The notes beneath the pieces were generated by a model. It saw only the letters and a program-made list of their open reading frames with translations, ran no database searches and was not told the DNA's origin. The translations under genes and the position numbers were made by a program. Below, piece by piece: positions 3,737-8,764 of a DNA stretch of 64,000 nt (its first letter is position 1; each line of letters starts with the position of its first letter). Source of the stretch: Alphaproteobacteria bacterium (lineage in GTDB: Bacteria > Pseudomonadota > Alphaproteobacteria > TMED109); assembly GCA_030828505.1 (NCBI GenBank), contig JAURCJ010000005.1:51803-115802 (forward strand), in the 5' to 3' direction.

Positions 3737-4072
3737 ATGAGTAAAATATTTTTTATCGTATTTGTTTTTATATGTCTATCAAGTAATTCTTTTGCTAAAA
3801 TTGAAAAATGGGAATGTTATGCCCCTAAGAATTCAAGTAAGTTTGCAGATAAGACAGTAGTAGGTAATTATAAATTAGATACTGATAAGGTGACTGTTGA
3901 ATATTTCAGCAATGGGAATTGGAAATATTATGATTGGTGCTGTAATATCAAATTTAATAAAGAAAGAAACATATTATATTTTTCATTTCTAGGTTTTAAT
4001 CATATATTTGATTTAAATTCAAAAGATCGTTTTGTATCTAATTTTAAATACCCATGTAAAGTTATTAATTAG
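3737..4072 (+). CDS. Small secreted hypothetical protein (WxC ... C family)
   Basis: Signal peptide MSKIFFIVFVFICLSSNSFA; mature start 'KIEKWECYA', C-terminal 'YPCKVIN'. Confidence 0.65.
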   Translation: MSKIFFIVFVFICLSSNSFAKIEKWECYAPKNSSKFADKTVVGNYKLDTDKVTVEYFSNGNWKYYDWCCNIKFNKERNILYFSFLGFNHIFDLNSKDRFVSNFKYPCKVIN

Positions 4073-4091: not shown

Positions 4092-4571
4092 TTAGTTTGT
4101 GATTGGAACAAAACCACAGGCATAAAATTTATTATTATTTTCTTTAAAAATTAATAATGGCTTACCTCTCATACTTCCAATGCTTATAAGCCCTCTATTA
4201 TTCGCAGTAGTTATTTTAGGTTTTAAACCTATAGTTGAATTAAATATTCCATTTTTATCAATAGAAAAATTTACTAAGTTTTCTATATTCCAATCAGATA
4301 ATTCAGGTTTACTCTCTATTATTGGAATGCCAAAATTTTCACAAGAGTCCCCGTCATATAAAGCAATTCTATATTTTCCCATTTCTAGATTTTTTAATTT
4401 AAACTTAAATGCTGGCAATTGAAGAAACCAACTATCAACACCTTCAGCATTACCAATATTTAACTTATCCTTTGTAAAAAATTCTACTGTAGTCCAATCA
4501 GCTATAAGTTGTATTGGATAAATATAAATAAAACATAGAAATGTTATAAAAGTCCAAATATTTGATTGCAT
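4092..4571 (-). CDS. Secreted Cu,Zn superoxide dismutase-fold-like protein lacking metal-ligand histidines
   Basis: N-terminal hydrophobic signal; 'GKYRIALYDGDSCE', 'NLVNFSIDKNGIFNSTIGLKP', 'GKPLLIFKENNNKFYACGFV' resemble SodC segments HGFHIHE.GDC, DLPNI.vd.dG, rslVvH...ACGvI; no His in the translation. Confidence 0.55.
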   Translation of the reverse strand: MQSNIWTFITFLCFIYIYPIQLIADWTTVEFFTKDKLNIGNAEGVDSWFLQLPAFKFKLKNLEMGKYRIALYDGDSCENFGIPIIESKPELSDWNIENLVNFSIDKNGIFNSTIGLKPKITTANNRGLISIGSMRGKPLLIFKENNNKFYACGFVPITN

Positions 4572-4593
4572 AATATTTTCTCCATAAAAATAC

Positions 4594-4666: not shown

Positions 4667-5023
4667 ATGAAATATTTTTTATTAGTCATAATATTATTTT
4701 TAATTGCATTCAATGCTATAGCAAAAGTGGAGGTATGGTTATGTAATAGTAAGCATGGTATTGATGTTTTTAAAATAGACATTATAGAACCACATAATAT
4801 TTCTCAAAGAATTAATAGGAGTTGGAAGAAATTTTTGACATCTGAGCAAAAAACCGAAGTAGCAGATGTTATATACGAACCTCAAAATCAATTAATAAAA
4901 ATTATTTATAATTTTGAAATAGATAAAAAAGAAATAATATTTAATTTAGAATCCAGAGAGTTAATTATAAAATATAAAGATAAAAATAAATTGAACAGTA
5001 AATGGTCGTGTGAATTAAAATAA
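4667..5023 (+). CDS. Small secreted hypothetical protein (WxC ... C family)
   Basis: Signal peptide MKYFLLVIILFLIAFNAIA; mature start 'KVEVWLCNS', C-terminal 'WSCELK'. Confidence 0.65.
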   Translation: MKYFLLVIILFLIAFNAIAKVEVWLCNSKHGIDVFKIDIIEPHNISQRINRSWKKFLTSEQKTEVADVIYEPQNQLIKIIYNFEIDKKEIIFNLESRELIIKYKDKNKLNSKWSCELK

Positions 5024-5160
5024 ATATAGTAAAATATTCTTTTTATAAAAATGAAGATTATAATTATAATAATTAATTTTTAATTGATACAATTGATTTT
5101 CAAAGAGTATGCTCTATCTTTAAAGTAAGTTTTTTTGTGCTTCTTAGGATTGGAAAATAT

Positions 5161-5607
5161 ATGTTAACTTTCAGAAGTACTCAAACTTTATTAGTTATAT
5201 TTTTTTTAATTTTTCCTAATATATTATATGCGAATACCCAGATGAAATTTGCATGTATGTCCTCTTGGTATGAACATTGTAATATGGGAATATGTGAAGA
5301 TTACGCAAATAAAAAGCCTTTTTTAAAGCAAGTAAAGATTCTAATTGATTTAAGCTCAAAGACATTAATCAGAAGAACGGATAATAATTATATTATGAAT
5401 ATTACAGAGACTCGCTTTAGGCCAAAAAAACATATTTATATTGGTTATGGAGATAATTGGTCTAATGGATATTTAGTCATCAATTTATTAAATGAAGAAG
5501 AAGGAACCACAGGCTATATGGATACACTTTTTACAAATGCAGGAGGATTTGTTAGTACAGGTTTTTGCAAGCTACAAGTAATAGATGATAGTATTATTGA
5601 AGGTTAG
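5161..5607 (+). CDS. Small secreted hypothetical protein
   Basis: ATG at 5161 (track start 5137 is an alternative); signal peptide '...LLVIFFLIFPNILYA', then 'NTQMKFACMSSW', C-terminal 'GFCKLQV'. Confidence 0.55.
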   Translation: MLTFRSTQTLLVIFFLIFPNILYANTQMKFACMSSWYEHCNMGICEDYANKKPFLKQVKILIDLSSKTLIRRTDNNYIMNITETRFRPKKHIYIGYGDNWSNGYLVINLLNEEEGTTGYMDTLFTNAGGFVSTGFCKLQVIDDSIIEG

Positions 5608-8413: not shown

Positions 8414-8764
8414 ATGATCAAAGTAGTATTGATATTATTTTTTTTTATTCAGGTTAATAATGTTTTAGCTATGGCTAAAACAATAATTTGGCAATGCCAA
8501 GTAGTACAAATTAACGGAAAAATGCAAACCAACGGTAAAGTAAATAAGTATAAAATAGATGTGACAACGCCAATGGTTTGGGTAGGAGATGAAACAAGGT
8601 GGTCTAGTTTTGAAAATACTACTTTTTTATACGATAAAAATAATCATCGCTTATCTTCTTCAAATATACCTTGGATAGGCACATATTATTTAACTGAACG
8701 TAAAGTTATTTTTAATAATAGTGATGCGAATTTAGAAGTTATTTATGAATGCAAAGAACTATAG
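8414..8764 (+). CDS. Small secreted hypothetical protein (WxC ... C family)
   Basis: Signal peptide MIKVVLILFFFIQVNNVLA; 'KTIIWQCQV', C-terminal 'IYECKEL'. Confidence 0.65.
   Translation: MIKVVLILFFFIQVNNVLAMAKTIIWQCQVVQINGKMQTNGKVNKYKIDVTTPMVWVGDETRWSSFENTTFLYDKNNHRLSSSNIPWIGTYYLTERKVIFNNSDANLEVIYECKEL

Follow-up and report, generated by a model that had tools for sequence, protein, structure and literature searches.

The gene at positions 4092-4571 of the window, i.e., the whole 64,000-nucleotide stretch of alphaproteobacterial DNA that we analyzed, encodes a pseudoenzyme derived from the bacterial Cu,Zn superoxide dismutase SodC: by descent a member of the SOD-fold superfamily, but one that lacks the features that define a Cu,Zn-SOD. 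This SOD-like protein almost certainly does a different job from dismutation, and the best overall explanation, which we regard as reasonably likely, is that it is a secreted, SodC-derived non-dismutase whose barrel binds a partner through a conserved DSWFL motif.

The SOD-like gene and its relatives

The gene is encoded on the minus strand, the plus-strand frame across the same interval being full of stops, and has the following features.

4092..4571, minus strand: SOD-like pseudoenzyme gene, 159 amino acids, ATG start (4571-4569), stop included, assigned from the open reading frame and its orthologues
4580..4583, minus strand: GGAG, a Shine-Dalgarno-like box that precedes the ATG by 8 nt, read from the sequence
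4503..4571, minus strand: residues 1-23, a predicted signal peptide, with the cleavage placed by eye just before D25 or close to it

A scan of genome contigs with the single protein returned no relatives, and an alignment-based scan returned four orthologues, with 43-59% identity along almost the full length. All four belong to the window protein's own family of marine Alphaproteobacteria, and one of these is from MarineAlpha9_Bin1. Together with the window protein these form clade A (five members). Searching 385 alphaproteobacterial genomes with a clade A profile identified one distant relative (L045, E 4.5e-18), and a search of the order to which L045 belongs added three more, giving the four members of clade B; the nine relatives in our joint profile are the members of these two clades. 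A further set of weak matches (L006-L009) was rejected, unrelated ORFs being among them, and no relative was identified in the viral contigs searched. The distribution is narrow, the gene being carried by 5 of the 28 genomes of the window protein's taxonomic family, and by one genus elsewhere in the class; within the window's genus its presence is patchy (4 of 7 genomes).

The ORF is a genuine conserved gene, since the orthologues contain no internal stops and dN is lower than dS in those pairs where dS can be estimated (0.19 versus 0.77 in the closest clade A pair), several dS values, including those of many more-distant pairs, being saturated or undefined. The ORF is intact in every carrier. 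All nine relatives have a hydrophobic N-terminus followed by an invariant D25, which is the basis of the signal-peptide prediction, and the window protein is probably exported, most likely to the periplasm.

Relationship to SodC

With the window protein alone, we found nothing significant in Pfam, NCBIfam, PHROGs or the PDB sequences, and the five-member clade A profile gave a near-background hhalign probability of 4% against SodC. The nine-member profile that includes clade B, in contrast, aligned with the SodC profile at a probability of 94.7% (E 6.4e-8) over 127 columns, in a single register that includes both disulfide cysteines. The score of this alignment was 50.0, against 18.5 or less for 59 column-shuffled profiles and 9.6 for the reversed profile. 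When an HMM of the nine-member alignment was run over the 385 genomes, the one match beyond the SOD-like proteins (E 7.6e-4) overlapped a canonical SodC, at L051:1351-1899 (minus strand), in another alphaproteobacterial family. Clade B proteins also match Pfam Sod_Cu (PF00080) weakly (E 0.0055 in one search, and 0.0012-0.046 in another), at 17.5-19.6 bits against a gathering cut-off of 28.9 bits; clade A gives no match. No other family was significant in our profile searches.

The sequences of clade B are visibly intermediate, with RLHE..DC in place of the HxHE..C of SodC, GDLL in place of GDLP, RGHALLLHSGG in place of KGRSLIIHxGG, and ACGVV. Since neither the window protein nor clade A by itself has a significant match to SodC, and the profile that includes clade B does, the homology is transitive (through clade B) plus structural, and on this basis we consider it very probable that the window protein descends from SodC. 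The preliminary description had proposed the resemblance from three stretches matched by eye, i.e., GKYRIALYDGDSCE with GFHIHE..C, the IENLVNFSIDKNGIF stretch with GDLPN..VDADG, and KPLLIFKE..KFYACGFV with SLVIHA..RIACGVI, and these stretches do occur in the translation, and the alignment programs paired them in the same way.

Predicted fold

An AlphaFold2 model of the window protein, built from this protein and its four orthologues with clade B left out, had a pTM of 0.66 and a mean pLDDT of 65, with values of 70-84 in the first four strands and below 50 in the middle region. A Foldseek search of this model against the PDB demonstrated that the best 50 matches were all Cu,Zn-SOD or SOD-like proteins, 29 of the matches having an E value of 0.001 or less. 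The top match was the SodC of P. leiognathi (E 2e-5, probability 1.00), and TM scores against the top matches were about 0.6-0.67. By prediction, therefore, the Greek-key SOD barrel is kept. A second model, built from the orthologue in MarineAlpha9, was of low quality (pTM 0.44), and its best-ranked PDB matches were SODs at E values above 0.01; we regard it as consistent with an SOD fold and not as independent support.

The preliminary description had called the product a periplasmic SOD-fold protein and had named two outcomes that would count against this, a predicted structure without an SOD fold and a confident match to another family. Neither was found, and the fold is supported by both model and profile; the periplasmic part of that description stands as a prediction.

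Lost metal sites and conserved cysteines

We assigned the counterparts of the SodC active-site residues (bovine numbering) from a joint alignment of the nine relatives with SodC, and the corresponding positions in the window are as follows.

4356..4364, minus strand: residues 70-72, ALY; copper ligands His46 and His48 correspond to Ala70 and Tyr72
4341..4343, minus strand: Cys77, equivalent of SodC Cys57; invariant
4146..4148, minus strand: Phe142, at the position of copper ligand His120
4125..4127, minus strand: Phe149, in place of the active-site arginine, Arg143; the electrostatic loop that would separate residues 142 and 149 has been lost
4116..4118, minus strand: Cys152, equivalent of SodC Cys146, in ACG[VF]; invariant

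At the four copper-ligand positions His46, His48, His63 and His120, the window protein has A, Y, E and F. Across the relatives, the His46 position is A in clade A and R or L in clade B, the His48 position is Y or H (often H in clade B), and the His120 position is F except in two clade B members, one with H and one with R. Of the zinc-ligand positions (His63, His71, His80 and Asp83), that of His63 is occupied by E, K, I or V and that of His80 by N, H, K or R, these two counterparts being approximate as the alignment is uncertain in the region of the zinc-loop deletion; the His71 position falls within the deletion, and Asp83 is kept in clade B only. The Arg143 position is F, L, I, V, A or T. The zinc loop is shortened and electrostatic loop VII deleted, and none of the nine relatives retains the SodC Cu/Zn ligand set, as the preliminary description had anticipated for the window protein. 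Judging from this alignment, no family member is able to form a Cu,Zn site. This also sets the proteins apart from the pattern of Cu-only SODs and CSRPs, where the Cu site is kept and the Zn site and loop VII are lost, as here the Cu site is lost as well. The substitutions indicate that the window protein has, in all probability, no dismutase activity, and it presumably carries no metal.

The window protein contains three cysteines, at positions 13 (within the signal peptide), 77 and 152. All nine relatives have both the Cys57 and the Cys146 equivalent of SodC, bearing out the earlier claim that both disulfide cysteines are kept, and a Cys77-Cys152 disulfide probably forms. The same description had stressed that the protein contains no histidines (count 0). 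This is true of the window protein but is not significant: 2.3 histidines are expected in 159 amino acids at the 1.47% found in window ORFs, which gives P(0) = 0.09, and the clade A orthologues have one to three histidines at unconserved places, so that complete absence is an incidental, near-chance trait of one member. The significant form of the observation, as far as the aligned sequences tell, is the loss of the ligand set in all nine relatives together with the invariance of both disulfide cysteines.

A conserved motif absent from SodC

The nine relatives share a set of invariant residues that includes D46-S47-W48-F49-L50, K117-P118 and R135-G136. The KP and RG pairs have counterparts in SodC (LAPRL and KGRSL), whereas DSWFL has none.

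4422..4436, minus strand: residues 46-50, DSWFL, covering the last part of strand 2 and the beta2-beta3 turn; invariant in all nine relatives and absent from SodC

In the AlphaFold2 model, DSWFL closes strand 2 and turns to strand 3, forming a surface hairpin, and its strict conservation suggests that this hairpin may be a binding surface.

Genomic position and origin

In the four orthologues, the gene occupies a common locus: a polyprenyl synthetase gene lies on one side and, on the other, a gene in convergent orientation for a secreted protein of 179-194 amino acids, with an AP_endonuc_2-type isomerase gene adjoining. This site is empty, with both flanks present, in the window's own genome (G000) and in its genus-mates G003, G005 and G006; in G000 the empty site is on contig C8 (L054) and the SOD-like gene is on a different contig. 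Our tree pairs the window protein with the MarineAlpha9 protein, from another genus (support 96/89), and this position is at odds with the polyprenyl synthetase of the window's genome, which shares 85-90% identity with its counterparts in three genus-mates, 70-71% with those in the other two, and only 56% with the partial sequence from MarineAlpha9. The empty usual site, the presence of the gene elsewhere and this discordance fit either a horizontal acquisition of the SOD-like gene or the relocation of an old paralogue.

The neighborhood gave no functional clue, as the neighbors in clade A look unrelated in function; in clade B, they are an enoyl-CoA hydratase gene and the end of a valyl-tRNA-synthetase-like ORF. 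The window copy is surrounded by small secreted orphan ORFs, and genus-mates carry this region in part, without the SOD-like gene. Four of these ORFs, at 3737-4072, 4667-5023, 5137-5607 and 8414-8764 (all plus strand), encode 111-156 amino acids and have no Pfam or NCBIfam match; in three, a signal peptide is followed by a W.C motif, and these may be distant paralogues. In G005, a genus-mate, homologues of two of these ORFs lie next to the same DUF4149 gene. We also observed that the secreted protein encoded convergently with the SOD-like gene at the usual locus (178-199 amino acids; L003:1966-2550, minus strand, with counterparts in L002, L004, L005 and L053-L056) is conserved, contains several cysteines and has no Pfam match, and that its gene stays at the locus where the SOD-like gene is absent.

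Proposed function and alternative explanations

In the mechanism that we propose, an ancestral bacterial SodC would have lost its copper and zinc sites, its active-site arginine and most of two functional loops, while the Greek-key barrel and the disulfide would have been retained, leaving a stable, metal-free, disulfide-locked secreted barrel that may bind a partner, either a protein or an envelope component, via the surface of the DSWFL hairpin. A non-dismutase role, which the preliminary description had already put forward as a repurposing of the fold, is supported by the fact that the gene remains under purifying selection after losing Arg143 and the Cu ligands. To the more specific claim of a binding role through DSWFL we give a little less than an even chance. 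More tentative still is our proposal that these proteins constitute a previously unnamed, SodC-derived, metal-site-free secreted family of two distantly related alphaproteobacterial groups, with a dedicated function exerted via the invariant hairpin, e.g., docking to an envelope complex. The patchy presence within the genus counts against this explanation, as it implies that the gene is dispensable or replaceable.

The strongest alternative, which we nevertheless consider unlikely, is that the former active-site region has been rebuilt into a site that still holds a metal or a small ligand and serves a new enzymatic or transport role. Retention of the Asp83 and, often, the His48 equivalents in clade B would be compatible with this, as would conserved polar residues near the old site in clade A, e.g., D73 and S76. 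However, no potential ligand set is common to both clades, the invariant residues are mostly structural (G, P, C and L) in addition to DSWFL, K117 and R135, and the shortening of the zinc and electrostatic loops also argues against a rebuilt site.

It is improbable that the gene is a decaying SodC relic, functionless in the window's genome and heading for loss; the patchy presence and the four empty sites described above could be read in this way, but decay is disfavored by the intact ORFs in all carriers, by dN values below dS where these can be estimated, by the invariant new motif, and by the presence of the gene at a second site in the window's genome. We judge it equally improbable that the protein pairs with a genuine SodC as a chaperone- or regulator-like partner, much as domain II of eukaryotic CCS, an SOD fold now without a Cu site, docks on SOD1 (PMC13017621). 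None of the 28 genomes of the window's taxonomic family that we searched contains a Sod_Cu match (ten of these being at least 90% complete and less than 5% contaminated), which makes such a role unlikely in clade A; the nearest clade B genomes have no Sod_Cu match other than the SOD-like gene itself, and the proteins conserve no further Cys, His or Met of the copper-chaperone kind. Least probable of all is an origin outside SodC, as an unrelated small beta-sandwich (CHRD-like or Ig-like) whose ACG[VI] and glycine motifs arose by convergence, since the near-background score of clade A alone and the weak fold matches of the window model to viral CHRD proteins (E 0.028) are set against a full-length, in-register profile match far above shuffled controls, a PDB ranking that is purely SOD, the intermediate sequences of clade B, and the lack of any Pfam match to the CHRD domain (PF07452) up to E 10.

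Significance and comparison with known systems

A secreted SodC-derived non-dismutase of this kind could illustrate the conversion of an antioxidant enzyme into a binding protein; clade B, in which equivalents of His48, Asp83 and, once, His120 are left, would supply apparent intermediates. For annotation, it means that weak Sod_Cu matches in such genomes should not be taken as dismutases.

The SOD-like family shares with bacterial SodC (PF00080; P. leiognathi/E. coli type) the export signal, the predicted Greek-key barrel and its strand order, both disulfide cysteines, the PG turn, LxP, (K/R)G...L(L/I) and the ACG[VI] end. Unlike SodC, it has no Cu/Zn-ligand set or Arg143, has both loops shortened, carries DSWFL as a new motif, and falls below the Pfam cut-off.

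Loss of the Cu site on an SOD barrel has been described mostly for eukaryotes and viruses. Oyster dominin, Cu-less CSRP repeats and CCS domain II are SOD folds without a Cu site that have other jobs, i.e., pathogen recognition and proposed chaperoning (PMC13017621); these differ from the SOD-like family in being eukaryotic, extracellular or cytosolic, and mostly in having residual metal sites or fused domains. The best viral fold match of our model was a poxvirus virion protein annotated as an inactive SOD-like protein (TM 0.61/0.74, E 0.016), which differs in being viral and of eukaryotic-type origin, with no signal of a close relationship to the SOD-like family.

The bacterial case in the literature that we consulted is YojM of B. 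subtilis, a SodC paralogue described in PMC10432803 as having lost copper binding and activity, and as being without two Cu ligands according to a reference cited there. YojM (1s4i, 1xtm) is among the top fold matches of the window model, and is close enough to SodC for a Pfam Sod_Cu match in B. subtilis. The SOD-like family goes beyond YojM: it has lost the whole ligand set along with Arg143 and two loops, yet two alphaproteobacterial groups conserve the fold, the cysteine pair and a new motif.
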